DNA of 64,000 bases, from contig NZ_JAMZDZ010000001.1 in assembly GCF_024172085.1 (NCBI RefSeq), positions 434,001 through 498,000 on the forward strand, in the 5' to 3' direction. The notes below the pieces were generated by a model. That model saw only the letters and a list, made by a program, of their open reading frames with translations. It did not search any database and was not told where the DNA came from. Below are positions 6,841-30,940 of this stretch, one piece after another. The stretch comes from Hamadaea flava (lineage in GTDB: Bacteria > Actinomycetota > Actinomycetes > Mycobacteriales > Micromonosporaceae). The first letter of the stretch is position 1. Every line of letters begins with the position of its first letter. Both the position numbers and the translations under genes were made by a program.

Positions 6841-6855
6841 GCCGCCGGCGGCGCT

Positions 6856-6861
6856 TAGCCT
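6856..6861 (+). promoter_or_regulatory. candidate -10 hexamer, leaderless start at 6868
   Basis: TAGCCT is 6 nt before GTG 6868, with no Shine-Dalgarno. The same hexamer precedes the starts at 11856 and 27497. Confidence 0.45.
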
Positions 6862-6867
6862 TCCCGC

Positions 6868-8826: not shown

Positions 8827-8832
8827 GCTCGC

Positions 8833-10050: not shown

Positions 10051-10056
10051 GGATGA

Positions 10057-10085
10057 ATCTTGATGAAAGACCTTAACGCTGTCAA
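10057..10085 (-). promoter_or_regulatory. promoter of the PLD-like gene, leaderless
   Basis: On the minus strand a perfect -35 TTGACA (10080-10085) is followed after 17 nt by CAAGAT (10057-10062). The ATG at 10050 starts 6 nt further on. Transcription would begin at or next to the start codon. It is the only candidate promoter here with a textbook -35. Confidence 0.7.
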
Positions 10086-10104
10086 TGTCTAGAACGTTGA
10101 GGCT

Positions 10105-11793
10105 TCACGCGCCCGGCGCGGCCGCGCCCAGGACGACGGTCTCCAGAGTGGACAGTGGCAGCGGCCCGTGACCGAGCACCGCGTGGTGGAAGTCGCGGAT
10201 GTCGAAGCCCGCACCCCGGGCCGTACGCATCCGCTCCCCCAGCTCCTCGATGCGCAGCTTCCCGATCATGTACGCCAACGCCTGCCCCGGAACGGCGATG
10301 TACCGGTCGACCTCGTTGGTGATGTTGCTCATCGACAGCGCCGTATTGTCGCGCATGTAGTCGATCGCCCGCTGCCGGGACCAGCCGAACTGGTGCATGC
10401 CCGTATCCACCACGAGGCGGCAGGCCCGCCACGCGTCGAAGGAGACCATGCCGAGCCGGGTCGTGTCGTCGGTGTAGAGCTCCATGCGGTCCGCCAGGCG
10501 TTCGGCGTACAGGCCCCAGCCCTCGCCGTGCGCGGTGAGGTAGGCGTACCGGCGGAACTCGGGAAGCTGCCGCTGCGCCTGGGCCACCGCGATCTGCAGA
10601 TGGTGCCCCGGCACGCTCTCGTGGAACGCCAGCGCCTCGTACTCGAACCGCGTACGCGACTGGGGGTGCAGCGTGTTGATGACGTGCGCGCCCGGCCGGG
10701 AACCGTCGCCGGTCGGCGGCTGGTAGTAGCCGAGCACGGAGTTCTCCGCCTCAGCCGAGTCCATCTCGCGGACGACGCACGGGGCCAGCGAGTAGTCGCG
10801 GAACCAGTCCGGCAGCGCCTCCTCGGCCCGGCGGAGCGCCCCGGTGACGGTGTCGACGATCTCGCCGCTCGTGGCGAAGCGCAGCGCCGGATCGTCGCGC
10901 AGCCGGGCGATCACCTCGTCGGCGTCGGACGTGCCGAGCACCTTGGCGCCCCGTTCGGAGAATTCCGCACGCAGGCGCGCCACCAGGCGTACCCCTGTCT
11001 CATGAATCTCGGCAGGCGTGAGTTCCGTGGTGGTGTGGGCACGGACGAGACCGAGGTAGGCGGCCTCGCCGCCGGGCAGACCGCCCACGCCGACCTCGCT
11101 GTCCCCGCGGCCGGCCGCCAGCAAGCGGTCCGCGAGCACTTCGCGGTAGCGGGCCAGCGCGGGCCGCACCGTGCCGCGGACCAGGTCCTCCGCGCGGGCC
11201 AGCCAGCGCGTGCCGTCCACCTCCGCGCCCGGCCGCGGGCCGGTCAGCGGGTCGTTCGCCAGATCACTCGACAGGTACGCGTCCAGCTGCGCGATCGCCT
11301 GCTCGACGCCCAGTCGCGTGGGGGTACGCCCATCGGCGAGCGCTTCGACGTGCCGGTTTCCGAGGGTGTCCAGGAATCCGCCGAGCTTCTCCAGCCGCGC
11401 CAGGTACGCCTCAGCCGCGGCCGGTTCGCCGACCGGCGCGGTCGGAATCGTCCCGACCAGCAGCGGCACCACCCCGGCGATGCTGGCGTTGACGCCGACC
11501 TCCTCCAGCCCGCCCCGGAGCACGTCCTGCTCGTCGGCGAGGACCCGGGTGAGCCAGGCGTGACTGATCCGATCCGACTCCCCCAGCGTGGCTGGATCGA
11601 TGTCGGCGACCTTCGCGGCGATCCCCCCGAGCCGGGTCGCGGCCCGATCCGCCGCCGCCCGGCTGGGATCGGGCACCTCGGCGTCGTACCCCGTCACGCC
11701 GAACACCGTGGCGCCGAACGGATCGTGTTCGTTGCGGGCCCGGAAGTAGTCGTCGCCCAGTTCGGCGAGACGCGTGTCCTGTGTCGTGTCCAT
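10105..11793 (-). CDS. DUF885 family protein, putative zinc peptidase
   Basis: A 562-aa protein of the DUF885 family. The hallmark HESVPGHHLQ (an HExxxGHH metal site) and the EGWGLYAE motif, which supplies the distal Glu, are both present in the C-terminal half. The family is related to M32-like zinc peptidases and is often annotated as a putative carboxypeptidase. There is no signal peptide, so it is probably cytoplasmic. The ATG is preceded by TAGGCT at 7 nt and lacks a Shine-Dalgarno, so it is probably leaderless. No operon partner. Confidence 0.85.
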   Translation of the reverse strand: MDTTQDTRLAELGDDYFRARNEHDPFGATVFGVTGYDAEVPDPSRAAADRAATRLGGIAAKVADIDPATLGESDRISHAWLTRVLADEQDVLRGGLEEVGVNASIAGVVPLLVGTIPTAPVGEPAAAEAYLARLEKLGGFLDTLGNRHVEALADGRTPTRLGVEQAIAQLDAYLSSDLANDPLTGPRPGAEVDGTRWLARAEDLVRGTVRPALARYREVLADRLLAAGRGDSEVGVGGLPGGEAAYLGLVRAHTTTELTPAEIHETGVRLVARLRAEFSERGAKVLGTSDADEVIARLRDDPALRFATSGEIVDTVTGALRRAEEALPDWFRDYSLAPCVVREMDSAEAENSVLGYYQPPTGDGSRPGAHVINTLHPQSRTRFEYEALAFHESVPGHHLQIAVAQAQRQLPEFRRYAYLTAHGEGWGLYAERLADRMELYTDDTTRLGMVSFDAWRACRLVVDTGMHQFGWSRQRAIDYMRDNTALSMSNITNEVDRYIAVPGQALAYMIGKLRIEELGERMRTARGAGFDIRDFHHAVLGHGPLPLSTLETVVLGAAAPGA

Positions 11794-16180: not shown

Positions 16181-18319
16181 ATGGAGTTCGGCACGTCGAT
16201 CACACCGGCCAACGGCGGTGATCCCGTCGCGCTGGCACGCCGGAGCGAGGAGTTGGGCTTCGACCTGGTCACCTTCCAGGACCATCCGTACCAGCCCCGG
16301 TTCCACGACACCTGGACGCTGCTGGCCTGGGTCGCCGGGCGGACCGAGCGCATCCGGCTCGCCGGGAACGTGCTGAACCTGCCGCTACGCGAACCGGCCG
16401 TGCTGGCGCGGAGCGCCGCGAGCCTCGACCTGCTGTCCGGCGGCCGGCTGGAGCTGGCGCTGGGCGCGGGCGGGTTCTGGGACGCGATCGAGGCGATGGG
16501 CGGCCCTCGGCGGGAGCCGCGGGAGGCGGTCGAGGCCACCGAAGAGGCGATCGAGATCATCCGGGGGATGCTGGACGCCGGAAACCAGACCCCGTTCCGA
16601 TACCGGGGCAGGCATTACCAGGTGCCCAACGCGCAGCGCGGCCCCCTGCCCGCCCATAACATCCCACTGTGGCTGGGCGCGCTCGGTCCTCGCATGCTGC
16701 GCCTGATCGGCCGCAAGGCGGACGGCTGGCTGCCGAGCCTGGGCCGGGTGGGCGTCGACGGTCTCCGTGCCGGGAACAAGCTGATCGACGAGGCCGCCGA
16801 GGCGGCCGGGCGCGATCCGTCGGACATCCGCCGTCTCGTGAACGTCACGCCGGACGTCCCGCTGGAGATCCTGCAGACCCTGGAAGCGGACACGCTCATC
16901 CTCTACACCGACGATGTGTCCGAGATGGAGCGGTTCGCCGCGGAAGTCATGCCGGTGCTGCGCGCGACGAACCGCCGGCCCACCCGGCCGAGCTGGGTCC
17001 GGGCGAAGCGGCGCGACGGGATCGACTACGACGGCGTACCGGCGTCGGCGGACGCGGTCGAGCCCGGGGACATCGACTTTCCCCGCCTGAGGTCGACCTA
17101 TCTGCGCGGCGGGAACCCCGGCATCGTGCTGCGGCCCCGGACGACCGGCGACGTGGTGGAGGCGCTGGCGTTCGCGCGCCGTCACCGGAACGTCCCGCTC
17201 GGCATCCGCAGCGCTGGGCACGGCGTCAGCGGGCGGTCCACGAACGACGGTGGGATCGTCCTCAGCGTGGCGCGGCTCGATCACGTCGAGATCGTGGGCG
17301 ACCGCCGGATCCGCGTCGGCCCCGGCGCGCGCTGGGCCGACATCGCCCGCGCGCTCGCGCCCCACGGCTGGGCGCTCACCTCGGGCGACTACGGCGGCGT
17401 GGGCGTCGGCGGCCTGACCACCGCGGGCGGCATCGGCTGGCTCGCCCGCAAACACGGGCTCACCCTCGACCACTTGCGCTCCGCGGAGGTCGTGCTCGCT
17501 TCAGGCCAAGTCGTACGCGTGGACGCGGCGCACAGCCCGGAGCTGTTCTGGGCTATCCGGGGCGCCGGCGCCAACTTCGGCGTGGTGACGGACTTCGAGT
17601 TCGACGTGGACGAGGTCGGCGACGTCGGGTTCGCCCAGCTGGCCGTGGACGGAAGCGATCCGGCGGGGGTGCTCGAACGGTTCGGCGCAGCGGTCGAGGC
17701 CGCGCCACGGGACCTGACCGCCGAACTCATCATGAGCCGGCCCCGGCCGGGGGCGTACGCGACGATCCTGGCGGTCGTCGACAGCGACGACCCCGAGACG
17801 ATCGTGTCCCAGCTGGAGCCGGTGGCGTCCATCGCTCCCCTGCTGGATCAGCGCGTCGTCATCACCCCGTACGCCGGTGTCATGGCGAACGCCGGCGACG
17901 CGGACCACGACGGCCAGGGAGAGCCGGCGGCCCGATCCGGGCTGATCGAGCACCTGACGCCGGAATTCTCCGCCGCCGCCGAAGAGCTGCTGCGCAGCGG
18001 CGCTGTGCACTTCTTCCAGCTCCGGTCGGTCGGCGGTGCGGTCGCCGACGTCGACCCGATGGCGACGGCGTACGCGAACCGGGCGGCGAACTTCTCGGTG
18101 ACCGCGCTCGGCGGCAGTCAGCACCGGCTCGACGCGCTCTGGGATCGCCTGCTCCAGCCGCATTTCACCGGCTCATACCTCAACTTCGACACCGATCGGC
18201 GGCCGGAACGGCTGCGCGACGCGTGGCCGCCGGAGCACCTGGCCCGGCTGCGCGACCTCAAACGCCGCTACGACCCGGACGGGCTCTTCCGCGACAACTT
18301 CTACCTCGGGGACTCCTGA
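16181..18319 (+). CDS. fusion of an LLM flavin-dependent oxidoreductase with a berberine-bridge-type FAD oxidase
   Basis: A 712-aa two-domain enzyme. Residues 1-~270 form a luciferase-like TIM barrel (FMN or F420 dependent), strongly similar to the protein encoded directly downstream. A short linker (~272-300) leads to a PCMH-type FAD domain with IRSAGHGVSGRS, in which H347 is the expected covalent FAD attachment site, and with GGIGWLARKHG. The Cys of doubly linked BBE enzymes is replaced there, so single histidyl linkage is expected. The C-terminus ends in a BBE domain (KRRYDPDGLFRDNFY). Two flavin enzymes in one chain suggest that one oxidises what the other reduces or monooxygenates. ATG 16181 follows GGGGAGGGCGAGC. 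It overlaps the next start (TGATG). Confidence 0.88.
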   Translation: MEFGTSITPANGGDPVALARRSEELGFDLVTFQDHPYQPRFHDTWTLLAWVAGRTERIRLAGNVLNLPLREPAVLARSAASLDLLSGGRLELALGAGGFWDAIEAMGGPRREPREAVEATEEAIEIIRGMLDAGNQTPFRYRGRHYQVPNAQRGPLPAHNIPLWLGALGPRMLRLIGRKADGWLPSLGRVGVDGLRAGNKLIDEAAEAAGRDPSDIRRLVNVTPDVPLEILQTLEADTLILYTDDVSEMERFAAEVMPVLRATNRRPTRPSWVRAKRRDGIDYDGVPASADAVEPGDIDFPRLRSTYLRGGNPGIVLRPRTTGDVVEALAFARRHRNVPLGIRSAGHGVSGRSTNDGGIVLSVARLDHVEIVGDRRIRVGPGARWADIARALAPHGWALTSGDYGGVGVGGLTTAGGIGWLARKHGLTLDHLRSAEVVLASGQVVRVDAAHSPELFWAIRGAGANFGVVTDFEFDVDEVGDVGFAQLAVDGSDPAGVLERFGAAVEAAPRDLTAELIMSRPRPGAYATILAVVDSDDPETIVSQLEPVASIAPLLDQRVVITPYAGVMANAGDADHDGQGEPAARSGLIEHLTPEFSAAAEELLRSGAVHFFQLRSVGGAVADVDPMATAYANRAANFSVTALGGSQHRLDALWDRLLQPHFTGSYLNFDTDRRPERLRDAWPPEHLARLRDLKRRYDPDGLFRDNFYLGDS

Positions 18320-19212
18320 TGACCGACTACGGGCACGACCTCCAGTTCGGGGTGTTCGTCACCCCCACCGCCCAGCCCGTACAGCACGCCGTCGAGCTGG
18401 CCGTCGCCGCCGACCGGGCCGGGCTGGACCTGGTGACCTTCCAGGACCATCCCTATCAGCCCCGCTTCCACGACACCTGGACGCTGCTGAGCTACGCGGC
18501 GTCGCGTACGCAGCGGGTGCACGTCAGCGGCAACGTCCTGAACCTGCCGCTGCGGCAGCCGGCCGTCCTCGCCCGCGCCGCCGCCTCCCTGGACCTGCTC
18601 TCGGGCGGCCGGTTCGAGCTGGGCATCGGCGCGGGCGGGTTCTGGGACGCGATCGAGGCGATGGGCGGGCGGCGGCTCAGCCCCGGGCAGTCGGTGCAGG
18701 CGCTCGAAGAGGCGATCACGATCTTCCGCGAGATCTGGAACCCGGCCGAGCGAGGCGGCGTACGCGTCGACGGCGAGTTCTACCAGGTACGCGGGGCCAA
18801 GCGCGGTCCCGCCCCGGCGCACGACATCCCGATCTGGCTGGGTGCGTACAAGCCGCGCATGCTGCGCCTGATCGGGCGGAAGGCCGACGGATGGCTGCCG
18901 TCGCTGGGCTATCTGCCCGGCGGTGCGACCGAGCTGGGTCCGCTCAACGAGGTGATCGACGAGGCCGCGGTCGCGGCCGGGCGGTCGCCCTCGGCCGTCC
19001 GGCGGCTGCTGAACGTCGGCGGGCAGTTCTCCGCGCAGTCGACCGGCTTCCTCAACGGGCCGCCGGAGCAGTGGGCCGAGGACCTCGCCGGGCTGACCCT
19101 GGAATACGGGGTGAGCACCTTCATCCTCGCCACCGACGACGCCGCCACGCTCGAGCTGTACGCGGCCGAGGTCGCGCCCGCGACCCGCGCACTCGTCGCC
19201 GCCGCCCGCTGA
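18319..19212 (+). CDS. LLM class flavin-dependent oxidoreductase
   Basis: A 297-aa luciferase-like monooxygenase/reductase, complete as a single domain. It shares long near-identical stretches with the N-terminal domain of the preceding fusion, for example VTFQDHPYQPRFHDTWTLL, NVLNLPLR and GAGGFWDAIEAMGG, so the two arose by duplication. Its ATG overlaps the upstream stop (TGATG), giving translational coupling. The two barrels could pair as a heterodimer, as in bacterial luciferase, or serve successive steps. Cofactor (FMN or F420) cannot be decided by eye. A strong hairpin follows at 19239. Confidence 0.88.
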   Translation: MTDYGHDLQFGVFVTPTAQPVQHAVELAVAADRAGLDLVTFQDHPYQPRFHDTWTLLSYAASRTQRVHVSGNVLNLPLRQPAVLARAAASLDLLSGGRFELGIGAGGFWDAIEAMGGRRLSPGQSVQALEEAITIFREIWNPAERGGVRVDGEFYQVRGAKRGPAPAHDIPIWLGAYKPRMLRLIGRKADGWLPSLGYLPGGATELGPLNEVIDEAAVAAGRSPSAVRRLLNVGGQFSAQSTGFLNGPPEQWAEDLAGLTLEYGVSTFILATDDAATLELYAAEVAPATRALVAAAR

Positions 19213-19363: not shown

Positions 19364-20287
19364 ATGAAGATCTCACGCCGTGGGCTGCTGCTGAGCGGGC
19401 TCGGGGTGGTGGCCGCCGGCGGCGGCACCGCCGCCTGGGCCCTCGACCGCTATGTGATCGACCACGTCGAGGTGTCCAACGCGTCGCAGATCGTCGCGCC
19501 CAAGGCGACGGTAGCGACAGCGGGCGGCTCTGTCACGAGCACCGCCACCTCGTACGCCAGCGACACGGCGAAGATCTCGATCGAGAAGGTCGAGACGGGC
19601 TCGGGCGACGACAAGGTCACCTACTTCGTCGCCGACGTCCAGATGACCGACGCCACGATCGTGCGGTCGGCTTTCGCGAACGACGAGTTCGGTCAGAACA
19701 TCATCGCGAACACCTCGGAGATCGCCCGGGACGCCGGTGCCGTGCTGGCCGTCAACGGCGACTACTACGGCTTTCGCACCACCGGCATGGTGATCCGCAA
19801 CGGGGTGGCCTTCCGCGACTCCGGTGCGCGGCAAGGTCTCGCGTTCTACACGGACGGCACGGCCAAGCTGTACGACGAGACCACGACGTCGGCCCAGGAC
19901 CTGGTCGACGCCGGAGTCTGGAACACCCTGTCGTTCGGGCCGGGGATCGTCGACGACGGCAAGCCGGTCGCCGGCATCGACTCCGTCGAGGTCGACACCA
20001 ACTTCGGCAACCACTCCATCCAGGGCCGGCAGCCGCGTACGGGGGTCGGGCTGCTCGGCGCCAACCATCAGCTCTGGATCGTGGCCGACGGGCGCAGCAA
20101 CGGCTACAGCCGGGGCGTCACGATGACGGAGTTCGCGAACATCTTCGTCGACCACGGCGCACAGACGGCGTACAACATCGACGGCGGCGGCTCGTCCACC
20201 CTGGTGTTCCAGGACAAGCTGGTCAACAACCCACTCGGCAAGGGCCAGGAGCGCGGCACCAGCGACATCCTCTACGTCGCGGGCTGA
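19364..20287 (+). CDS. exported phosphodiester glycosidase (NAGPA domain)
   Basis: A 307-aa protein with an N-terminal SRRGLLLSGLGVVAAGGG segment that looks like a twin-arginine or Sec signal/anchor. The rest is a phosphodiester glycosidase domain related to the mammalian uncovering enzyme: LAVNGDYYGFR, FGPGIV and the conserved NIDGGGSSTLVF near the C-terminus. The family removes sugars linked through phosphodiesters and in bacteria often acts on cell-surface polymers. The stop is 2 nt before the ATG of the GT2-GtrA gene, so the pair is one operon: a surface hydrolase and a lipid-linked sugar transferase. Confidence 0.85.
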   Translation: MKISRRGLLLSGLGVVAAGGGTAAWALDRYVIDHVEVSNASQIVAPKATVATAGGSVTSTATSYASDTAKISIEKVETGSGDDKVTYFVADVQMTDATIVRSAFANDEFGQNIIANTSEIARDAGAVLAVNGDYYGFRTTGMVIRNGVAFRDSGARQGLAFYTDGTAKLYDETTTSAQDLVDAGVWNTLSFGPGIVDDGKPVAGIDSVEVDTNFGNHSIQGRQPRTGVGLLGANHQLWIVADGRSNGYSRGVTMTEFANIFVDHGAQTAYNIDGGGSSTLVFQDKLVNNPLGKGQERGTSDILYVAG

Positions 20288-20289
20288 CG

Positions 20290-21276
20290 ATGGTCGTCCT
20301 CATCCCGGCGTACGAACCGGACACCCGCCTGATCGACCTGGTACGCCGGTTGCCGCACCATCGCGTGGTCGTCGTCGACGACGGCAGCGGTCTCGCGTAC
20401 AAGCAGGTCTTCGAAGGCGTCCGGCGACTCGGCGCCGACGTCGTGACCCTGGGCCGCAACCACGGTAAAGGACAGGCGCTGAAGACGGGCTTCGCGCACG
20501 TCGAGGAGAAGTTCCCCGGCGAGCCGGTGGTGTGCGCGGACAGCGACGGGCAGCATCGCGCCGAGGACATCGACGCGGTGGCCCGGCGGCTGAGCGAGAC
20601 GAACGCGGCGATGGTGCTGGGCGCGCGGCGGTTCACCGGACCGGTGCCGGCGCGCAGCCGCCTCGGCAACACCGTGACCCGGGCAGCGTTCCGGCTGGTG
20701 ACCGGCACTTCGGTCAGCGACACGCAGACCGGACTACGCGGCTATCCGCCCCGGATGCTGACCTGGCTGGGCGACGTCCGCGGCGAACGGTTCGAGTACG
20801 AACAGCGCCTCCTGCTGCGCGCGGCCCGCGAACGGCTGCCGCTGGCGGAGGTCGAGATCGCCACGATCTACCTCGACGAGAACGCCTCCTCGCACTTCCG
20901 CCCGGTACGCGATTCGCTGCGCGTCTTCGGGCAGCTGGCCACGTTCGCCACCTCCTCGCTGCTCGGCTTCGCCGTGGACTTCGTGGCCCTGTTCCTGCTG
21001 GCCGCGTGCACCGGGAACATCGTCCTCGCGGCGATCCTGGCCCGGCTGCTGAGCGCCACGATCAACTACGGCGTGAACCGCCGATACGTCTTCGCCTCCA
21101 CGCGCCGCCGGTCGGCCCTGCGGTACGCCGCCCTCGCCACCATCGTCCTCGGCGCGAACGTGGTCCTGCTGGACGTGCTCAGCGCGGTGACGGGGTCGCT
21201 ACTGATCGCCAAGCTCGCCACCGAGCTGGTCCTGTTCAGCGCGAGCTACCTGATCCAGCGCCGCCTCGTCTTCTGA
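20290..21276 (+). CDS. GT2 glycosyltransferase fused to a GtrA-like membrane domain
   Basis: A 328-aa protein. Residues 1-~205 form a GT2 domain of the polyprenyl-phosphate mannose/glucose synthase type, with VVVVDDGSG and the metal-binding ADSDGQH. Residues ~215-328 form a GtrA-like domain with four membrane segments and the NYGVNRRYVF motif. Such enzymes load a sugar onto undecaprenyl phosphate and may help flip it for surface glycosylation. ATG 20290 lies right after the upstream stop; the longer open frame from 19330 is only the shadow of the glycosidase gene. Confidence 0.88.
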   Translation: MVVLIPAYEPDTRLIDLVRRLPHHRVVVVDDGSGLAYKQVFEGVRRLGADVVTLGRNHGKGQALKTGFAHVEEKFPGEPVVCADSDGQHRAEDIDAVARRLSETNAAMVLGARRFTGPVPARSRLGNTVTRAAFRLVTGTSVSDTQTGLRGYPPRMLTWLGDVRGERFEYEQRLLLRAARERLPLAEVEIATIYLDENASSHFRPVRDSLRVFGQLATFATSSLLGFAVDFVALFLLAACTGNIVLAAILARLLSATINYGVNRRYVFASTRRRSALRYAALATIVLGANVVLLDVLSAVTGSLLIAKLATELVLFSASYLIQRRLVF

Positions 21277-21314
21277 GGCTCCCGCCGGCCCCGCCGAGAC
21301 TTTCACCGCCGGCC

Positions 21315-21698
21315 TCACTGCTGGCGACGCCGCGCCGACCGGGGCCTGCCGGGGCGACCCCGCCCCGAGCTTCGCCGAGGACTGCGGGGCTTCGGCTGGG
21401 TCGCCTGCCGTTCCGCCATCACCGACACCAATCCAGCGACGGCGAGCGCCGCACCCCCGATCGCGAACGTGGCCCCGATGCCGTATTTGGTCGACATGGC
21501 TTCGTCGTACGTCTCGTAGTGCGAGAACTCGCGGCTGGTCCCGCCGTGTGACCGCGTGTAGACAGGACAGACGTCGGACCGGCTCATGAGTTCCCCGTCG
21601 CACATGGTGTTCGGGCTCACCAGCATGCAAAGCCCGATGAGGACGAAGACGCCGCCGAGGAACACGAAGACCCAACGGTGCTTGGTCCAATACGGCAT
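21315..21698 (-). CDS. small membrane protein with two transmembrane segments
   Basis: A 127-aa protein with hydrophobic segments near residues 9-27 and 75-95, an extracytoplasmic loop holding two Cys (MCDGEL and DVCPVY), and an Arg/Pro-rich cytoplasmic tail. I recognise no family. ATG 21698 is fixed by GGAGGG at 5-6 nt. Convergent with the glycosyltransferase gene. It lies downstream of the histidine kinase gene on the same strand with a 74-nt gap, so it may be the last gene of that operon. Confidence 0.6.
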   Translation of the reverse strand: MPYWTKHRWVFVFLGGVFVLIGLCMLVSPNTMCDGELMSRSDVCPVYTRSHGGTSREFSHYETYDEAMSTKYGIGATFAIGGAALAVAGLVSVMAERQATQPKPRSPRRSSGRGRPGRPRSARRRQQ

Positions 21699-21772
21699 CT
21701 CTGCCCTCCGGGAACTTGGTTGGTTCCCCATCCTGAACCGTCGCCGCAACTCCCGCCGGCCGTTACGAACCG

Positions 21773-23272
21773 CTATTCCGCGAGGGGGAGGCGGACGGTG
21801 AACGTCGTCCGGCCCGGCTCGCTGGCCACGGCGACGCTCCCCCGGTGCGCGGCCACGACCGCCTGCACGATCGCGAGGCCCAGCCCGGTGCTTCCGGCGG
21901 TACGTGAGCGCGATCCGTCGCCGCGGGCGAACCGTTCGAAGATGTGCGGCAGCAACTCGGGCGGTATGCCCGGGCCGGCGTCGGTGACGCTCAGCTCGGC
22001 CTGCTTGCCCGACGGCGAGACCGCGACCGTGACGACCGTCCCTTCGGGCGTGTGCGTACGCGCGTTGGCGAGCAGGTTCGCGACGACCTGGTGCAGCCGC
22101 GCCCGATCGCCGGTGACGACGACCGGTTCCTCGGGGACGTCCAGGCGCCACTCGTGCCGGGGTCCGGCGGCGTGCGCGTCGCTGACTGTGTCTACGACGA
22201 GCGCGGTCAGGTCGACCGGCTGGTATTCCAGCGGGCGGCCGGCGTCGAGGCGGGCCAGCAGCAGCAGGTCCTCGACGAGGCCGCTCATCCGCTGCGCCTC
22301 CGACTCCATCCGGCCGAGCAGGTGTGCCACGTCTTCCGGGAGGTCGTGGCGGCGGCTGAGTTCGGCGTACCCGCGGATGGAGGCGAGCGGGGTGCGCAGT
22401 TCGTGGCTGGCGTCGGCGACGAACTGGCGTACCTGGGTCTCGCTGGCGTGGCGGGCTTCGAGCGCCTCGCCGACGTGGTCCAGCATCCGGTTCAGCGCCG
22501 CGCCGACCTGGCCGACCTCCGTACGCGGATCGGTGTCCTGCTCGTCGACGCGTTGGGGCAGCTCGACCTCACCGCGATCGAGGCGTACCTGGGAGACGCG
22601 GGTGGCGGTGGCGGCGACCCTCGACAGTGGACGAAGCGCCCGGCGGACGATGACCGTTCCCCCGTACGCCACCGAGCCGAGCACCAGCAGAGTCGTCCCG
22701 GCGACGACGGCTGCCAGCAGCAGCACCGTCTCCTGGGTCTCCTCCAGCGGCAGCCCGGTGACCAGGATCGCCCCGTCGTCCATCTGCTTGGCCACGACCC
22801 GGTACGCCCCCTGGTCGCACAGCTCGATGGTGTGCGCCTTGCCGTCGACGGGGACCGACAGCAGATTCGCGTACGCGTCGGTGAGGTCGGGTGAGGTCTG
22901 GCCCTGCTCCGACAGCACCGACGCCGAGACCACCTGGCTGCCGCAGAGCCGGGCGTTGAGCGTGCCGATGCTCTGGCCGAGTACCCAGCTGTCCTGGTCC
23001 GACTCGCCCGAACAGTCCTTCGCGCCAGTGGTTCCGGCGTCGGCGGGCTTCGGCTTGTGGTTGTCGTACCCCTTCGGCGCGCGGATCGCCGCCGCGGTCA
23101 GCTGCTTGTCGATCTGCCCGTTGAGCGTCTTGCTCAACGCGACGATGGTGGTGATGCCCACCGCGAGGAAGGCCAGCGCCAGCAGCGTCGTCATCGCCGC
23201 GACCAACCGGGCCCGCAGCGTCCAGGCGGTGGGGCGTGGCCAGACCCGCCTACGCGGCCGGCTTGAGGACAT
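21773..23272 (-). CDS. two-component sensor histidine kinase
   Basis: A 499-aa OmpR-class kinase. One membrane segment near residues 25-50, an extracytoplasmic sensor of ~120 residues with a few Cys, a second membrane segment near 175-200, HAMP, then the dimerisation/phosphoacceptor motif VADASHELRTPLAS with H290, and a HATPase domain with the N, G1 (DAGPGIPPE) and G2 (STGLGLAIV) boxes. The ATG at 23272 or a GTG at 23281 lies within the 3' end of the response-regulator gene (about 23 nt overlap), which ensures coupled expression. The stimulus is unknown, but the pair stands between two surface-polysaccharide gene groups. Confidence 0.9.
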   Translation of the reverse strand: MSSSRPRRRVWPRPTAWTLRARLVAAMTTLLALAFLAVGITTIVALSKTLNGQIDKQLTAAAIRAPKGYDNHKPKPADAGTTGAKDCSGESDQDSWVLGQSIGTLNARLCGSQVVSASVLSEQGQTSPDLTDAYANLLSVPVDGKAHTIELCDQGAYRVVAKQMDDGAILVTGLPLEETQETVLLLAAVVAGTTLLVLGSVAYGGTVIVRRALRPLSRVAATATRVSQVRLDRGEVELPQRVDEQDTDPRTEVGQVGAALNRMLDHVGEALEARHASETQVRQFVADASHELRTPLASIRGYAELSRRHDLPEDVAHLLGRMESEAQRMSGLVEDLLLLARLDAGRPLEYQPVDLTALVVDTVSDAHAAGPRHEWRLDVPEEPVVVTGDRARLHQVVANLLANARTHTPEGTVVTVAVSPSGKQAELSVTDAGPGIPPELLPHIFERFARGDGSRSRTAGSTGLGLAIVQAVVAAHRGSVAVASEPGRTTFTVRLPLAE

Positions 23273-24041
23273 ACCCCGCACCGCGCATCGTGTGGATCAT
23301 CGGCACCCGCCCGGCGTCGATCTTCTTCCGCAGGTAGGAGATGTACAGCTCGACGACGTTGGCCTGGCCGCCGAAGTCGTAGTTCCAGACCCGGTCGAGG
23401 ATCTGCCGCTTGGACAGCACCCGGCGCGGGTTGCGCATGAGGTAGCGCAGCAGTTCGAACTCGGTCGCGGTCAGTTCGATCGAGTGGCCGCCGCGGCGGA
23501 CCTCCCGGCTGTCCTCCTCCAGCACGAGATCGCCGACGACCAGCATCGACTCCGACTGGGACTCGGCGCGGACCGAGCGGCGTACGAGCGCGCGGAGGCG
23601 GGCGACGAGTTCCTCGATGCTGAACGGCTTGGTGACGTAATCGTCGCCGCCGGCAGTGAGCCCGGCCACCCGGTCCTCGACGGAGTCCTTCGCCGTGAGG
23701 AAGAGCACTGGCAGCTCCGGTGCGTCGGCGCGCAGTTTCCGCAGCACCTGGAGGCCGTCGAAGTCGGGCAGCATCATGTCGAGGACGACGGCGTCGGGCC
23801 GGAACTCCCGGGCGGTACGCACCGCGCTGCCACCGTCGGCGGCGCTGCGCACCTCCCAGCCCTCATACCGCAGCGCCATCGACAGCAGCTCGGCCAGGGT
23901 CGGCTCGTCGTCCACCACGAGCATGCGGACCGGGCTGCCGTCGGCCCGGCGGAGCTGTCCTCGCTTGGCCGTGGCGGCCGCCGAGGGGACCGCCGCGTTC
24001 ACCGGGACCGCGTTCACCGTGGCTGCATTCACCGTCGTCAT
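23250..24041 (-). CDS. OmpR-family response regulator
   Basis: A 263-aa regulator. It has an unusual ~38-residue N-terminal extension of repeated TVNA/PVNAA units, then a receiver domain (VVDDEPT; phosphoacceptor D88 in VVLDMMLPD; KPF switch Lys) and a winged-helix Trans_reg_C domain (ELTATEFELLRYL, YLRKKID, TMRGAGYVL). ATG 24041 (MTTVNAATV) is preferred; an ATG at 24053 would add four residues. It is first in the operon with the kinase and is divergent from the DUF4956-VTC-lipoprotein operon 155 nt away, which makes that operon a likely target. Confidence 0.9.
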   Translation of the reverse strand: MTTVNAATVNAVPVNAAVPSAAATAKRGQLRRADGSPVRMLVVDDEPTLAELLSMALRYEGWEVRSAADGGSAVRTAREFRPDAVVLDMMLPDFDGLQVLRKLRADAPELPVLFLTAKDSVEDRVAGLTAGGDDYVTKPFSIEELVARLRALVRRSVRAESQSESMLVVGDLVLEEDSREVRRGGHSIELTATEFELLRYLMRNPRRVLSKRQILDRVWNYDFGGQANVVELYISYLRKKIDAGRVPMIHTMRGAGYVLKPAA

Positions 24042-24196
24042 GCCCTCGATCATGCGGGCGTCCGCTAGAGGCCCGCTTTTCGTTCGCTGTGTGTTCCCTG
24101 TACTTATCGGCGACCTAGCCGGCTCACAGGTCACACCTAGCTCGGGACGGCTGAATGAACGGCAGGCCAACCTGAGCTGAAGACGAAGGATATCCC

Positions 24197-24808
24197 GTGA
24201 CCGATCTGACCATCATCGCCGCCGATCTCGCGGCGATCTGTCTGCTGACGTTCGCCGTCTACTTCCCCCGGCACCACCGCCGCGACCTGGTCGCGGCGTT
24301 CCTCGGCGTCAACATCGGCGTCTTGGCGGTGTCGATGGTGCTCGGCTCGTCGACCGTCGGCGCGGGCCTCGGGCTGGGGCTGTTCGGCGTCCTGTCGATC
24401 ATCCGGCTGCGCTCCTCCGAGATCGCCCAGCATGAGGTCGCGTACTACTTCGCCGCGCTCGCGCTCGGCCTCATCTCAGGGCTCAGCTCCGAGGTCACCA
24501 TCCTCAGCGGCGCCCTCATGCTGCTCGTGGTCGCGGCGCTGTTCGTGGGCGACCATCCCGGCCTGTTCCGCAGCTACCGGCAGCAGACCGTGCGGCTCGA
24601 CGTCGCGTACACCGACGAGGCGGCGCTGCGCGCTCGCCTGGAGACCGTGCTGGGCGGCCGCGTCGTCAACCTCACCGTCCGCGAACTCGACCTCGTCAAC
24701 GACATCACGGTGGCCGAGGTCCGCTACACGGCCGGCGATTCTCCACTGGTACGCGATTCTCCAGCGGTACGCGAGCCGGGCCCGCGCGTCGAGCGGATCG
24801 CGGCATGA
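24197..24808 (+). CDS. DUF4956 membrane protein
   Basis: A 203-aa protein with four hydrophobic helices in residues 5-115 and a cytoplasmic C-terminal ferredoxin-like region (residues ~125-195). The segment GLGLFGVLSIIRLRSSEI matches the conserved core of DUF4956. The GTG start is preceded by AAGGA at 8 nt. The ATGA overlap with the VTC-domain gene at 24805 shows translational coupling. DUF4956 proteins recur next to VTC-domain and beta-helix surface proteins across bacteria; their molecular role is not established. Confidence 0.85.
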   Translation: MTDLTIIAADLAAICLLTFAVYFPRHHRRDLVAAFLGVNIGVLAVSMVLGSSTVGAGLGLGLFGVLSIIRLRSSEIAQHEVAYYFAALALGLISGLSSEVTILSGALMLLVVAALFVGDHPGLFRSYRQQTVRLDVAYTDEAALRARLETVLGGRVVNLTVRELDLVNDITVAEVRYTAGDSPLVRDSPAVREPGPRVERIAA

Positions 24809-25566
24809 CGGCGTACGCGGCGGGCCTGCCGCCGATCGCGCTCGACGAGCTGACCGCACGGGCGGAGTTGCTGACCCGGGTCGACCGCAAGTACGTGCTG
24901 CCCCGCTCGGAGCTGCCCGAGCTGCTCGACGGACTGGCTGGGCGGGCGCGCGTACTGGAGATCGACGGCCGCCGAGAGTTCGGCTATCACTCCGTCTACT
25001 TCGACACCCCAGAGTTGGACAGCTACCTCGGCGCGGCGCGGCGGCGTCGCCGTCGGTTCAAGGCGCGCCTGCGGCACTACGTCGACTCGGGCCTCCAGTA
25101 CGCCGAGGTCAAGACGAGAGGTCCCCGGGGCACGACGGTCAAACGCCGCCGGCCTTACGACGGCGGAGACGGCTTCGCCCCGGTGCTCGCCGAGTCCGGT
25201 GTGGACGTCGATCCGGCGCGGCTGAGCCCGACGCTGACCACGTGCTATCGGCGTACCACCTTGTATGTGAGCGAGACCGGCACCCGCGTGACGATCGACG
25301 CGGACCTGGCCTGGCGCGTGCCCGGCGGTCCGGAGCTGGACCTGGCGGGCCGAGTGATCGTCGAGACCAAGTCGGGTGGCCGCGCGTCGGCGGCGGACCG
25401 GCTGCTGTGGTCGCTGGGCCATCGGCCGTGCCCGGTCTCCAAGTACGCCACCGGGCTGGCCGCGTTGCGCCCCGGGCTGCCCGCGCACCGCTGGCGGCCG
25501 GTGCTCCGCCGCCACTTTCCCGCTCTGTCATCTGCCCTGCCACCTGCCCTGGAGGACCTGTCATGA
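24805..25566 (+). CDS. VTC-domain protein (polyphosphate polymerase-like)
   Basis: A 253-aa triphosphate-tunnel-type protein. Basic and acidic tunnel residues typical of VTC domains are visible: LTRVDRKYVLP near residue 21-31, YHSVYFDTP, FKARLRHY, YAEVKTRG, TIDADL and IVETKSGG. Yeast VTC polymerises ATP gamma-phosphate into polyphosphate; bacterial stand-alone homologues next to DUF4956 are uncharacterised. It is cytoplasmic and probably works with the membrane protein encoded upstream. It overlaps both neighbours by ATGA, so all three genes form one translational unit. Confidence 0.87.
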   Translation: MTAYAAGLPPIALDELTARAELLTRVDRKYVLPRSELPELLDGLAGRARVLEIDGRREFGYHSVYFDTPELDSYLGAARRRRRRFKARLRHYVDSGLQYAEVKTRGPRGTTVKRRRPYDGGDGFAPVLAESGVDVDPARLSPTLTTCYRRTTLYVSETGTRVTIDADLAWRVPGGPELDLAGRVIVETKSGGRASAADRLLWSLGHRPCPVSKYATGLAALRPGLPAHRWRPVLRRHFPALSSALPPALEDLS

Positions 25567-27362
25567 AGATCCGCAGGAAAGCGCTCGTCGCGGTCACCTC
25601 GGCCGCACTCGGCATCGCGGCGCTGGCCGGCTGCTCGACCAGCGCCGACCCGGGCACCTCGACGGCGGCGTCCACTTCGGGCACGTCGACGGTCAGCGGT
25701 TCGCAGACCGCCCAGGAGGTGATGGCCGCCAACCAGGCCGACCACGTGGACGGCGATCAGTCGGCGTTCACCGAGTCCGAAGTCGTCGACGTGAAGCTCA
25801 GCGGCGGCAGCGCCTCCGTCGACGGCGACGGCGACGGCGTCAAGGTGGACGGCTCGACGGTGACCATCACGCAGGGTGGGACCTATCGGCTGTCGGGGTC
25901 GCTGACCGGGCAGGTGGTCGTCGCGGCGGCGGACGCGACCGTCAAGCTCATCCTCGACGACGCCACGATCACCAGCAGCACGACGGCCGCCATCGCCGTG
26001 ACGGACGCGAAACTGGTCACCGTCGTCCTGGCCGGGGGCAGCCAGAACTCGCTTGCCGACACGTCCTCGTACGCCGACGACGCGGATGTCAACGCGGCCC
26101 TGTTCAGCTCGGCCGACCTGACGATCACCGGCGCCGGCGCGCTGACCGTGCACGGCAACGGCAACGACGGCATCGCGAGCAAGGACGGTCTGGTCATCCA
26201 GGCCGGCACCATTTCCGTCACCGCCAAGGACGACGGCGTACGTGGCAAGGACTATCTGGTCGTCGACGGCGGCACGGTGACGGTCGCCGGCGGCGGAGAC
26301 GGTTTGAAGGCGGACAACGACACCGACGCCGACCGTGGCTACATCTCCGTCGCGGGCGGAACCGTGAAGGTCACCGCCGGGGGTGACGGCGTGGACGCCT
26401 CGACCGACCTCGTCGTCACCGGCGGTACGCTCACCGTCGCGACCGGCGGCGGCAGCGGCGAACAGCCGTCCGACGACACGTCGGCCAAGGGTCTGAAGTC
26501 GAACGTCATCACCGTCCTCGACGGCGGCACGATCACGGCCGACTCCGCCGACGACGCCGTGCACAGCGACGGCGCGGTGCACTTCGCCGGGGCCACCGTC
26601 ACCGTGGCGAGCGGGGACGACGGCGTACACGCCGAAGGGGACCTGATCGTCGACAAGGGCACGGTGACGGTCACGAAGTCGAACGAGGGCCTGGAGGGCA
26701 AGGACATCACCGTCAACGGCGGCGACGTCACGGTCACCTCCAGCGACGACGGCATCAATGCAGCCGGCGGCTCGGGCACCTCGCAGTCCGGCGGCGGGTT
26801 CGGCCGGGGTGGCGGTGGAGGTGGCGAGATGGGCGTCGGCGACTACTCGCTGAGCATCGCCGGTGGCACCACCGTCATCAACGCCGACGGCGACGGCTTC
26901 GACTCCAACGGAATGGCGAAGATCACCGGCGGCACCCTGGTCGTCAACGGCCCGACGATGAACGGCAACGGGGCACTGGACGTCAACGGCTCGTTCGAGA
27001 TCACCGGGGGCGTACTCGTGGCGGCGGGCAGCGCGGGCATGGCGGTCGCCCCCGACACCGGATCGGCACAGGGCTGGCTGTCGGCCACCTTCGACTCCGC
27101 CGTGAGCGCCGGGACGACGGTCCACGTGACCGATTCGTCCGGCCAGGTGCTGGCGACCTTCGTGACGTCGAAGTCCATGCAGAACCTGGTCTACTCGTCC
27201 ACGGAGATCAAGAGCGGCACGGCGTACAAGATCTACACGGGTGGCTCCGCCTCCGGCGCCGACACCGGCGGACTACGCGCGTCAGGCAGCCTGGGCTCGG
27301 CGACCGTGCTCGCCACGGTCACCGCCGGCCAGGCCCCGGCCGGCGGCTTCGGCCGCCGCTGA
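25563..27362 (+). CDS. beta-helix lipoprotein, carbohydrate-binding domain family
   Basis: A 599-aa exported lipoprotein. The signal peptide ends in the lipobox LAGC (Cys near residue 22), followed by a Ser/Thr-rich linker. The body is made of repeated ~20-25-residue turns of the form DGV/DGL...GGT(V/I)TV, as in the Cthe_2159-type carbohydrate-binding beta-helix family, interrupted by a Gly-rich loop (GFGRGGGGGG) near residue 420. Family members bind acidic polysaccharide with calcium. It is the third gene of the coupled DUF4956-VTC operon. The exposed product suggests the operon makes or anchors a surface polymer. No CotH kinase gene, often found with these, is in the window. Confidence 0.85.
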   Translation: MKIRRKALVAVTSAALGIAALAGCSTSADPGTSTAASTSGTSTVSGSQTAQEVMAANQADHVDGDQSAFTESEVVDVKLSGGSASVDGDGDGVKVDGSTVTITQGGTYRLSGSLTGQVVVAAADATVKLILDDATITSSTTAAIAVTDAKLVTVVLAGGSQNSLADTSSYADDADVNAALFSSADLTITGAGALTVHGNGNDGIASKDGLVIQAGTISVTAKDDGVRGKDYLVVDGGTVTVAGGGDGLKADNDTDADRGYISVAGGTVKVTAGGDGVDASTDLVVTGGTLTVATGGGSGEQPSDDTSAKGLKSNVITVLDGGTITADSADDAVHSDGAVHFAGATVTVASGDDGVHAEGDLIVDKGTVTVTKSNEGLEGKDITVNGGDVTVTSSDDGINAAGGSGTSQSGGGFGRGGGGGGEMGVGDYSLSIAGGTTVINADGDGFDSNGMAKITGGTLVVNGPTMNGNGALDVNGSFEITGGVLVAAGSAGMAVAPDTGSAQGWLSATFDSAVSAGTTVHVTDSSGQVLATFVTSKSMQNLVYSSTEIKSGTAYKIYTGGSASGADTGGLRASGSLGSATVLATVTAGQAPAGGFGRR

Positions 27363-28519: not shown

Positions 28520-30940
28520 ATGCGTAAAGGCGACCGCAATCCCGTCATGAACGTGGCGTCCCTGCTGATCTGTGGTGTCCTCGCGGGCGTCGTGGTGGCG
28601 GCGGCGGCGTTCCCGGCGATCGCGATGTCCGGTCTAGCGGCGAAGTCGGGCGCGCAGGCGTTCGCGGACCTGCCGAGCGAGCTGACCGTGAAACGGTCGC
28701 CGCAGATGAGCAAGGTGTACGCGAGCGACGGCCGGACCTTGCTGGCCTCGATCTATGACGAGAACCGGCAGGACATCGCCATGGATCAGATTCCCAAGGT
28801 CATGCAGCAGGCGATGATCGCCGCCGAGGACCACAAGTTCTACGAGCACAACGGCGTCGACGTCCAGGGCATCGCGCGGGCGTTCGTGGCGAACAAGAAC
28901 TCCGGCGAGACTCAGCAAGGCGCGTCCACCCTGACGATGCAGTACGTCCGGCTGTCGATCACGTACGCCGCCGACAACCCCAACGACGTGTTGAACGCCG
29001 CCGAGGACACCCCGGCGCGGAAGTTGCGCGAGGTCAAGTACGCGCTGGCGATCGAGAAGAAGCTCACGAAGGACCAGATCCTGGAGGGCTACCTCAACAT
29101 CGCATACTTCGGGAACCACGCGTTCGGCATCTACGCCGCGTCGCAGGTGTACTTCGGCAAGGAGCCGAAGAACCTGACGGTCGAGGAGGCGGCCTTCCTG
29201 GCGGGGCTCGTCAAGTCGCCGAGCGACTTCAACCCGATCCAGGACGACGGCACCGTCAACGAGCAGGCCGCCGCCGACGGCAAGGGCCGACGCGACTGGG
29301 TGATCGACCAGATGCACGAGATCGGCGCGATCACGGCCGAGCAGGTGACGCAGGCCAAGGCCAAGGAACTGAAGATCACCGGCAAGCCCGCGCCGAACGG
29401 CTGCACCGCGACGGCGATCGCCAGCGCCGGGTTCTTCTGCGACTTCCTTCAGCGCTGGTGGATGAGCGAGCCCGCGTTCGGGGCGAACTCCTACGAGCGT
29501 GAGCGGGCGCTGAAGACCGGCGGTTACAAGATCGTCTCCTCGTTGGACGTGTCGACCCAGAACGCGGCCAAGGCGAACGTCGAGAAGTACCTCAAGACCG
29601 GCAAGAAGCACGCGCTGATGGTGGTCGCCGTGGAGCCCGGCACGGGCAAGGTCCGGTCGATGGCGGTCAACCGAAACTTCAAGATCGACGACGCGGCCAG
29701 CCCGAAGAACGGCCTGTCCACCGACCCGGCCAAGGCCGCCAAGAACATTCGCGGCACGTACCCGAACACGGTCAACCCGCTGATGAGCGGCGACCAGTAC
29801 GGCTACCAGTTCGGCTCGACGTTCAAGGTGTTCACGGCGGTCGCCGCGCTGGAGAACGGCTACCCGCTCGACTACACGATCAACTCGCCGTACCAGTGGG
29901 TGTCGCCGTTCGTCACCGCGCCCGGCCCGGCCAGCTGCGGCGACAAGTGGTGCCCGAAGAACGCGTCGCAGTCGATGACCGGCGTACACACGATGTGGCA
30001 GGCGTTCGGGCGCTCGGTGAACACCTACTTCGCGCAGCTCATCGCCCGGGTCGGCCCGGGCAAGGCGGTCGAGGCCGCGAGGCAGATGGGGCTGACCTTC
30101 CGGGGTGACCCGAACCAGCAGGGCACCGACGCGTACTTCGCGGCGCACCCGGACGCCTGGGGCACGTTCACCCTCGGCGTCACCCAGAACACGCCGATGG
30201 AGATGGCCAACGCGTTCGCGACGCTGGCCGCCGACGGCACCTACTGCCAGCCGATCCCGGTGGAGTCCATCACCGACGCCAACGGAGTGCAGCTCGACGC
30301 GGCCAAGCCGCGGTGCCAGAAGGTGATCGACACCGACGTGGCGCGGGCCGCGATCGACATGGCGCGCTGCCCGCTCGGCGACCGGTCTCAGCTCGGCGGA
30401 TGCGCCAACGGGGGCACCGCGCCCTACGTCCGCAACATGGTCGACAAGCCGGTGGCCGGCAAGACCGGCACCACCGACAACGACCGCACGGCCGCGATGG
30501 TGGCCACGACGCGTCAGCTGTCGGTGGCGGGCATCGTCGCCGACCCGGACTGGACCAACAACACGGTCAGCTCCGCCAACCTCGGCGGCAAGGACGCGCA
30601 CCGCGACGTGGTCAACCCGGCTGTCGCCGACACGCTGCACGACGGGATGAAGGGCAAACCGGCGCAGCAGTTCGGCAAGCCGGACGGCACGAAGATCGTG
30701 CACGGGACGAAGACCTCGATCCCGAGCGTCACCTGCAAGACGGTGAGCGAAGCGACCACCGTCCTGCGCAACAAGGGCTTCTCGGTGACGGTCGAGCCGG
30801 GCGAGGTCAACTCGACCTGCCCGAAGGGCACCGTCGCCGGGACGTCGCCGAGCGGCTCGACGAGCAAGGGCAGCACGGTGGCCATCCAGGTCAGCAACGG
30901 CCAGGGTGGCGGGCAGAACCCGCCACCCCAACAGCGCTAG
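28520..30940 (+). CDS. class A penicillin-binding protein with PASTA domain
   Basis: An 806-aa bifunctional peptidoglycan synthase. One N-terminal membrane anchor (residues ~15-38) is followed by a GT51 transglycosylase domain (catalytic E103 in IAAEDHKFYEH) and a transpeptidase domain with the serine motifs STFK (S433-K436), SVN (S499-N501) and KTGT (K648-T651). A single C-terminal PASTA domain (about residues 735-795) would bind muropeptides or linkage units. All catalytic residues are present. ATG 28520 is the natural start (MRKGDRNP), but only a poor GGTGG ribosome site is visible. It ends 1 nt before the stop of the convergent gene. Confidence 0.93.
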   Translation: MRKGDRNPVMNVASLLICGVLAGVVVAAAAFPAIAMSGLAAKSGAQAFADLPSELTVKRSPQMSKVYASDGRTLLASIYDENRQDIAMDQIPKVMQQAMIAAEDHKFYEHNGVDVQGIARAFVANKNSGETQQGASTLTMQYVRLSITYAADNPNDVLNAAEDTPARKLREVKYALAIEKKLTKDQILEGYLNIAYFGNHAFGIYAASQVYFGKEPKNLTVEEAAFLAGLVKSPSDFNPIQDDGTVNEQAAADGKGRRDWVIDQMHEIGAITAEQVTQAKAKELKITGKPAPNGCTATAIASAGFFCDFLQRWWMSEPAFGANSYERERALKTGGYKIVSSLDVSTQNAAKANVEKYLKTGKKHALMVVAVEPGTGKVRSMAVNRNFKIDDAASPKNGLSTDPAKAAKNIRGTYPNTVNPLMSGDQYGYQFGSTFKVFTAVAALENGYPLDYTINSPYQWVSPFVTAPGPASCGDKWCPKNASQSMTGVHTMWQAFGRSVNTYFAQLIARVGPGKAVEAARQMGLTFRGDPNQQGTDAYFAAHPDAWGTFTLGVTQNTPMEMANAFATLAADGTYCQPIPVESITDANGVQLDAAKPRCQKVIDTDVARAAIDMARCPLGDRSQLGGCANGGTAPYVRNMVDKPVAGKTGTTDNDRTAAMVATTRQLSVAGIVADPDWTNNTVSSANLGGKDAHRDVVNPAVADTLHDGMKGKPAQQFGKPDGTKIVHGTKTSIPSVTCKTVSEATTVLRNKGFSVTVEPGEVNSTCPKGTVAGTSPSGSTSKGSTVAIQVSNGQGGGQNPPPQQR

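Follow-up and report, generated by a model that had tools for sequence, protein, structure and literature searches.

The closest described relatives of the system reported here are gene sets beside the Pel loci of streptococci and clostridia, in which genes for CotH, a poly-phosphate polymerase, DUF4956, and DUF4832 are contiguous (PMC7112168). A variant of the CotH, polymerase, and DUF4956 set is present in bifidobacteria, according to the accessible part of the same paper. In Streptococcus intermedius, deletion of the DUF4956-like gene (SIR_1592) gave more Pel and deletion of the CotH gene (SIR_1594) gave less, and both mutants aggregated less (PMC12345266). The accessible text of that report describes SIR_1592 as an MgtC domain, with four membrane segments, joined to an ACT domain, and says that the trio is not found outside Pel loci. 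A Clostridium perfringens locus also lists VTC/polyphosphate-polymerase and CotH genes (PMC2879425 and PMC11677781, each available in part). Described here is a locus of Hamadaea flava in which the DUF4956 and VTC genes are joined to another partner, a beta-helix lipoprotein of the Cthe_2159 family. The window, meaning the whole 64,000-nucleotide stretch analyzed (contig NZ_JAMZDZ010000001.1, positions 434,001 to 498,000), is part of an 8.86 Mb single-contig genome. Positions 19364-27362 of the window were checked gene by gene for open reading frames, Pfam domains, and start positions.

Three genes on the forward strand form the core of the locus. The DUF4956 membrane protein gene (24197-24808) has a GTG start and matches PF16316 with 198.4 bits. 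The VTC-domain gene (24805-25566) encodes 253 amino acids and matches PF09359 in two stretches with 81.4 bits, against a cut-off of 23. The Cthe_2159 gene (25563-27362) encodes a right-handed beta-helix lipoprotein of 599 amino acids (PF14262, 279.5 bits) with a lipobox read by eye as LAGC. Profile searches found one copy of each gene in the genome. Neighboring genes overlap by ATGA at 24805 (DUF4956/VTC) and at 25563 (VTC/Cthe_2159). The original prediction had taken the two joints to mean that the products are made in fixed ratio. Both overlaps are real and suggest translational coupling, but a fixed ratio goes beyond what an overlap proves. Overlaps of 1-4 bp recur across loci, in 94 of 104 adjacent DUF4956/VTC pairs and in 30 of 76 VTC/Cthe_2159 pairs (window included, one locus entered twice, starts taken from the analysis's own gene caller).

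Like the Pel accessory set, the locus combines a contiguous VTC-type polymerase and DUF4956/MgtC-ACT protein with a secreted protein. It differs in that a profile search found no PF08757 (CotH) match in the genome, which has Cthe_2159 instead, along with NAGPA, GT2-GtrA, and a two-component system. The locus had been put forward as an undescribed system. In that form the claim is too broad, as the CotH-VTC-DUF4956 trio is published with Pel loci (PMC7112168 and PMC12345266, in their accessible parts). What is new is the variant with Cthe_2159, NAGPA/GT2-GtrA, and a two-component system, which belongs to a poorly understood VTC-DUF4956 kind. Judged by titles and abstract openings among the matches listed, no publication was found on DUF4956-VTC-Cthe_2159 or on NAGPA/GT2-GtrA with them, most subscription papers and all preprints being outside the scope of the search.

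Conservation of the DUF4956-VTC pair and its partners

The family sample consisted of 150 genomes, that of the window included. VTC places were taken from PF09359 rows, with eight second matches merged into the genes they belong to, and DUF4956 places from PF16316 rows above the cut-off, three rows under it being left out. VTC is present in 76 genomes at 124 places, and DUF4956 in 75 genomes at 122 places. DUF4956 adjoins VTC at 121 of the 124 places, on the same strand and with 93-290 bp between the domain matches. The VTC places without this neighbor are in G071, G003, and the draft genome G059, and a single DUF4956 place (G033) is without VTC. The pair exists in two forms, with DUF4956 upstream of a short VTC gene (70) or downstream of a long one (51). 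Among 14 control genomes, VTC and DUF4956 are present, at genome level, in the same three: Bacteroides ihuae, Corynebacterium glutamicum, and Methanosarcina acetivorans. CotH is found in two of these and Cthe_2159 in one.

The third gene of the set is exchangeable. Within 4 kb of VTC, the partner is CotH at 78 of the 124 family loci and Cthe_2159 at 31; no locus has both, and 15 have neither, one of them starting roughly 100 bases from the end of a contig. The long form accounts for 51 of the CotH loci, and the short form for 27 with CotH, 31 with Cthe_2159, and the 15 with neither. The choice between CotH and Cthe_2159 is near-exclusive. CotH as an alternative to the lipoprotein lay beyond the view of the original prediction, which had set co-conservation of its three genes beforehand as the test that could refute it. 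The three genes were found to be co-conserved, and the prediction passed this test; DUF4956-VTC-Cthe_2159 behaves as one co-inherited unit.

The partners are seldom found without VTC. CotH occurs in 69 of the family genomes, 68 of which also have VTC (exception G043), and VTC is no more than 4 kb away at 78 of the 88 CotH places. A phylum sample of 246 genomes, sharing one genome with the family sample, has VTC in 25 genomes and CotH in 18, of which 17 also have VTC; the exception (G313) is a weak partial match. The hypergeometric p for this association is 2.7e-19, a value that ignores phylogeny, as do the co-occurrence p-values for the family sample. Bacillus subtilis has CotH and lacks VTC in profile searches. 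Cthe_2159 is present in 35 of the 150 family genomes, all with VTC. From 85 Cthe_2159 rows, 52 places were kept and 33 dropped as weaker second stretches or fragments, and 30 of the 52 lie within 3 kb of DUF4956, as measured against 32 of the 122 DUF4956 places. By simple rules, a lipobox is present in 69 of 78 Cthe_2159 genes, and 27 of 35 CotH genes encode a hydrophobic stretch at the N terminus.

The occurrence of CotH within 4 kb of VTC at 78 family loci contrasts with the restriction of the trio to Pel loci stated in PMC12345266. No Pel families were found among 20 proteins flanking six CotH loci, for which the full flanks were not scanned.

A wider locus set was assembled from 80 named loci, the best of 575 confirmed relatives ranked by similarity to the VTC of the window, and 40 family loci. 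Because of this choice, the named loci lean toward the type of the window. The VTC gene was called in 116 of the 120 loci (all except L065, L128, L136, and L145), and the addition of the window gives 117, with L038 and L080 being the same place. A quick VTC tree of 116 loci needs five changes of partner label, with nine partner-less loci left out and L139 labelled Cthe_2159. Well-supported branches alone force between one change (Cthe_2159) and three (CotH).

One locus, in Actinomyces gerencseriae (L134, 5743-9837), has DUF4956-VTC twice in tandem, followed by Cthe_2159. A similarly repeated VTC pair is reported for Clostridium perfringens in the accessible part of PMC2879425.

The VTC, DUF4956, and Cthe_2159 proteins

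The AlphaFold2 model of VTC, built from 24 sequences, has a pLDDT of 90. Its best PDB matches in Foldseek are the Vtc4 structures 3g3r and 3g3q (E about 1e-12, 7e-13 for 3g3r; TM about 0.6), with YgiF and other tunnel enzymes ranking lower. A plain sequence search against the PDB gave no match at E 1, and a sequence profile made from the 24-sequence alignment recovers Vtc4 (E 6e-8). Residues K29, R88, R90, K103, Y148, R150, R161, E187, K189, S212, and K213 are invariant in the 24 sequences. In the profile alignment their Vtc4 counterparts are, in the same order, K200, R264, R266, K281, Y359, R361, R373, E426, K428, S457, and K458. Those other than R264, R266, and E426 we take to be active-site residues as well. 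The combined change R264A/R266A/E426N has been used to inactivate Vtc4, and a positively charged belt is described from the tunnel exit of Vtc4 to the membrane channel (PMC9911596, in its accessible part).

Tunnel fold, active-site residues, and the pairing of a tunnel-domain polymerase with a membrane protein are thus features common to this locus and the yeast VTC complex, in which the tunnel domain of Vtc4 goes with the membrane domains of Vtc1 and Vtc3. The differences are that the VTC of the window has no SPX or other additional Pfam domain, that DUF4956 is the sole Pfam domain on its partner, and that its operon also encodes a lipoprotein; the SPX and Vtc-type transmembrane domains of the eukaryotic complex were not found with Pfam. 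CYTH/TTM hydrolases carry an N-terminal ExExK motif. At this position (25-30) the VTC of the window reads RVDRKY, like RQTTKY in Vtc4, and the missing motif and the fold ranking both speak against a CYTH hydrolase. Simple intracellular storage of polyphosphate is also disfavored. The genome has one PPK1-type kinase elsewhere, which makes bulk storage an unlikely role for VTC, and the VTC operon includes a lipoprotein gene.

The AlphaFold2 model of DUF4956 (pLDDT 74, pTM 0.53) has five long helices and a C-terminal beta-alpha-beta-beta tail that is ACT-like. Foldseek gave no match at E 0.001 or better, and several of the weak matches are, we assume, enzymes bearing ACT domains. Residues R25, H26, R28, R70, and R72 are invariant and, in the model, would lie on the cytosolic side if the tail is cytosolic. 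The protein appears to be distantly related to MgtC and to end in an ACT-like tail. The DUF4956 of the window has no match to PF02308 (MgtC) at E 0.01, whereas a distant long-form member reaches 24.3 bits over nearly the full profile length (cut-off 31.4), and three such members also match it below the cut-off. Profile comparison with MgtC gave weak probabilities of 65.6% for the long type, 20.1% for the window type, and 70.4% for both; it rested on 4 of 15 MgtC rows, and the positive control, in which the long DUF4956 type was compared with the short one, itself gave only 65.5%. Six comparisons of DUF4956 profiles with three unrelated families gave 0.1-0.5%. Common to DUF4956 and the MgtC/SapB membrane family are these below-cut-off matches of the distant members and the ACT-like tail.

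In two loci of one genus (L041, 9339-10748, and L044, 9546-10973), about 2.7 kb separate DUF4956-VTC from a gene whose product, by eye, resembles the beta subunit of ATP synthase, an enzyme on which MgtC is reported to act (PMC12345266, accessible text).

Cthe_2159 is a calcium-binding protein. The lipoprotein of the window matches the whole family domain (residues 96-354, profile positions 1-262 of 262, E 3e-83) and is related to the known structures 4peu and 4phb (E 1.5e-30). It differs from them in its lipoprotein-type leader, in a further 245 residues or so past the domain, and in the overlap of its gene with VTC. Reported ligands of Cthe_2159 are cellulose and polygalacturonate (PMC6712302, accessible part).

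NAGPA, GT2-GtrA, and the two-component system

The remaining genes named in the original prediction are all present, as confirmed by Pfam matches and coordinates. The NAGPA (phosphodiester glycosidase) gene lies at 19364-20287 on the forward strand and encodes 307 amino acids (PF09992, 113.8 bits against a cut-off of 25). Its product begins with a twin-arginine hydrophobic leader and is predicted to be extracytoplasmic. Its PDB matches are weak and include the mammalian-type NAGPA structures 6pkg and 6pku, and it has a DGGGSS stretch in common with its PDB relative 6ozd. The adjacent gene (20290-21276, forward strand) encodes a GT2 glycosyltransferase of about 328 amino acids fused to a GtrA/DPMS membrane domain (PF00535 and PF04138). 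Its scores against the NCBIfam AglJ and PpgS models are far under the cut-offs.

Gene orders were compared in the 117 loci by counting only seven family members and ignoring genes in between. DUF4956-VTC-Cthe_2159 stands alone in 45 loci, is followed by NAGPA-GT2-GtrA in 13, and is preceded by NAGPA-GT2-GtrA in 10, namely eight Arthrobacter/Paenarthrobacter loci, one Propionicimonas locus, and the window. The remainder are mostly CotH-type orders, with DUF4956-VTC alone in nine. In Arthrobacter the five genes form a contiguous run, co-oriented and nearly touching. In the window, the two-component system separates GT2-GtrA from DUF4956 on the opposite strand, and in Klenkia (L153) NAGPA/GT2-GtrA is divergent to DUF4956-VTC-Cthe_2159. 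Overlaps of 1-4 bp are found in 5 of 10 neighboring GT2-GtrA/DUF4956 pairs, and overlaps also occur in 8 of 22 NAGPA/GT2-GtrA pairs. NAGPA and/or GT2-GtrA are present in 27 of the 76 Cthe_2159 loci of the tree set, in the stretch examined. The proposed association of NAGPA/GT2-GtrA with the operon thus holds in several actinobacterial lineages.

NAGPA genes with a frame of 330 amino acids or less were counted by eye in at least 13 of the 150 family genomes, and in 12 of those 13 they lie 0.5-5.3 kb from DUF4956 (20 rows measured). In the remaining genome, G078, the gene is a fragment. Larger-frame NAGPA genes, judged by frame length only, are many; such genes lie near DUF4956 in G075 and G006, with the NAGPA gene of 665-amino-acid frame in G006 standing near a CotH-type locus (L057).

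Other neighbors were considered as parts of the system and rejected. An XRE/DUF5753 gene that in Actinoplanes lies between Cthe_2159 and NAGPA (one member scanned) and the FMN_bind and ferric reductase genes of Actinoplanes loci (one member of each scanned) are nearly confined to one genus group.

The two-component system is encoded on the reverse strand. The sensor histidine kinase (21773-23281; HAMP, HisKA, and HATPase_c) has an uncertain start, at 23281 or 23194. The OmpR/PhoB-type response regulator (23250-24053; Response_reg and Trans_reg_C) is divergent to DUF4956. Between these two genes, four tandem 11-bp direct repeats of the form GYYCSCTNNNN (24060-24099, forward strand) make up a candidate response regulator site. 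The tandem 11-bp layout is, we presume, that of OmpR/PhoB-type sites. The pattern had no match in 100 shuffles, although it was derived from the same site. Three-unit repeats of period 11 in eight regions divergent to a response regulator (window included, three from near relatives) have a mean z of 2.4, or about 2.1 without the window, as calculated from printed values. Periods 9, 10, 12, and 13 in these regions have a mean z of 0.5 or less, and 60 of 125 control divergent regions have means of -0.1 to 0.6, with 0.4 at period 11. In the L060 region, period 10 scores above period 11.

Response regulator genes are crowded near DUF4956-VTC, with 28 within 3 kb and 2 at 3-9 kb in 118 loci, the window left out. 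Nine of the 28 have one and the same arrangement, found in the Actinoplanes group, and others come from near relatives, so that independent cases are far fewer than 28. The proposal that the adjacent kinase and regulator control the operon is in keeping with this crowding and with the repeat array, which together make such regulation plausible. A PHO-box reading of the repeats was set aside, as a two-unit search allowing one mismatch found no copy near NAGPA. The claim is therefore limited to a regulator-type repeat array. GTTC repeats upstream of DUF4956 (18 in 105 regions, against 0.55 in single-base shuffles) came in several cases from near relatives and were not used.

Three other genes were noted around the locus. 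A gene for a small membrane protein of 127 amino acids (21315-21698, reverse strand), with only a sub-threshold Trp_oprn_chp match, lies between GT2-GtrA and the kinase. Downstream (3') of the operon is a class A penicillin-binding protein with a PASTA domain (28523-30940, forward strand), and genes grouped with it by clustering also follow the operon in six Arthrobacter/Paenarthrobacter loci. Upstream (16181-19212, forward strand), a 712-amino-acid frame seems by eye to join an LLM-class oxidoreductase to an FAD-linked oxidase, and a second LLM-like protein comes after it.

Proposed function and alternatives

From the gene set, its co-conservation, the near-exclusive partners, the fold, the active-site residues, and the repeats, we infer catalysis, product, export, partner function, and regulation as follows. 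DUF4956-VTC may be a membrane-coupled polyphosphate polymerase whose product is passed to an extracytoplasmic partner, a tentative reading to which we give a little less than an even chance. VTC would make polyphosphate from ATP at the inner face of the membrane, and the MgtC-like DUF4956 would anchor VTC and pass the chain across. The third, exchangeable component would receive or use the product outside. In the window this would be the Cthe_2159 lipoprotein, which might hold the polyanion at the envelope, perhaps through calcium. Elsewhere the lipoprotein would be replaced by a CotH kinase, which in most cases has a signal-like stretch at its N terminus. GT2-GtrA, as the source of a polyprenyl-phosphate sugar donor, and NAGPA, which would cleave sugar phosphodiesters, could provide a sugar-phosphate step in the Cthe_2159 version. 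The two-component system may control the operon through the 11-bp repeats between the response regulator gene and DUF4956.

Several observations weigh against this reading. Partner exclusivity is not absolute, since 15 of the 124 family loci have neither partner and L139 (Paractinoplanes tereljensis, 6354-11494), a locus outside the 150-genome count, has both in the order CotH-DUF4956-VTC-Cthe_2159. Of the 52 Cthe_2159 places, 22 are more than 3 kb from DUF4956, by the same measurement as above. The match of E187 to E426 falls in the weak last stretch of the alignment, though the fold supports it. DUF4956 is at most a putative channel, its model is of moderate confidence, and its tie to MgtC is below the Pfam cut-off. 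Basic residues on the cytosolic side could also be expected from the positive-inside rule alone. The literature searched, as far as its text was accessible, has no tested activity for any bacterial VTC protein. The accessible text of PMC12345266 describes no effect for deletion of the VTC gene SIR_1593, and the Streptococcus deletion results do not favor a simple linear polyphosphate pathway. The ligands reported for Cthe_2159 in the accessible part of PMC6712302 do not include polyphosphate.

The alternative that survives best is a regulator of exopolysaccharide output. DUF4956 and VTC would respond to the ATP or phosphate state of the cell by adjusting a surface glycan pathway, with polyphosphate as an intracellular signal that is not exported. 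The MgtC relation of DUF4956 and its ACT-like tail are in line with this, as is the change in Pel amount on deletion of SIR_1592 and SIR_1594 with none described for SIR_1593 (PMC12345266, accessible text). Taken alone, it leaves the tie to CotH or Cthe_2159 at 109 of 124 loci unexplained, and we regard it as possible but improbable.

A more specific version of the polymerase reading is doubtful in our estimate. In it, DUF4956-VTC would export polyphosphate as an extracytoplasmic phosphoryl donor, used by CotH on surface targets; in the Cthe_2159 version the polymer would be held on the acidic beta-helix and would feed an envelope sugar-phosphate modification. With polyphosphate as the CotH donor, it would make sense that Actinomycetota genomes with CotH almost always have VTC too (68 of 69 in the family sample and 17 of 18 in the phylum sample). 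B. subtilis, with CotH and no VTC, would be an exception, as ATP is at hand in its mother cell.

Adhesion to plant polysaccharides is unlikely. Cthe_2159 and CBM2-bearing CotH would hold cells to the plant wall, with the VTC/DUF4956 product modifying the adhesin. CBM2 is present on two of three CotH proteins scanned, and GH53 genes lie beside two CotH loci (L069, 7605-10698, and L118, 5702-7297). A gene family with one scanned pectate lyase (L083, 7378-8718) is found at 16 loci, 15 of Streptomyces and L139, and the ligands reported for Cthe_2159 are of the pectin and cellulose type (PMC6712302, accessible part). No Arthrobacter or Actinoplanes locus has a member of the pectate-lyase family (other plant-polymer enzymes were not searched for there), and NAGPA/GT2-GtrA is left unexplained.

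Least probable is that the VTC tunnel enzyme transfers phosphate to a lipid-linked or membrane acceptor, making for instance a phosphoglycan, to give a phosphorylated glycan instead of polyphosphate: co-conservation with NAGPA and GT2-GtrA (likely a polyprenyl-phosphate sugar synthase) and the presence of PPK1 would suit it, but all compared Vtc4 active-site residues are kept, the closest fold is a polymerase ahead of CYTH-type enzymes, and 49 of the 76 Cthe_2159 loci have no NAGPA/GT2-GtrA in the stretch examined.

Bacterial VTC proteins are named polyphosphate polymerases, and the genome encoding that of the window has PPK1 as well. Close pairing with DUF4956, and partners (CotH and Cthe_2159) that nearly exclude each other, lead to a testable idea, the delivery of a phosphate polymer across the membrane. 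If membrane-coupled polymerization by DUF4956-VTC is borne out, prokaryotes would have their own version of the yeast process in which synthesis and translocation are coupled, extracellular kinases might draw on it for phosphate, and the envelope of soil actinobacteria would have a new component.

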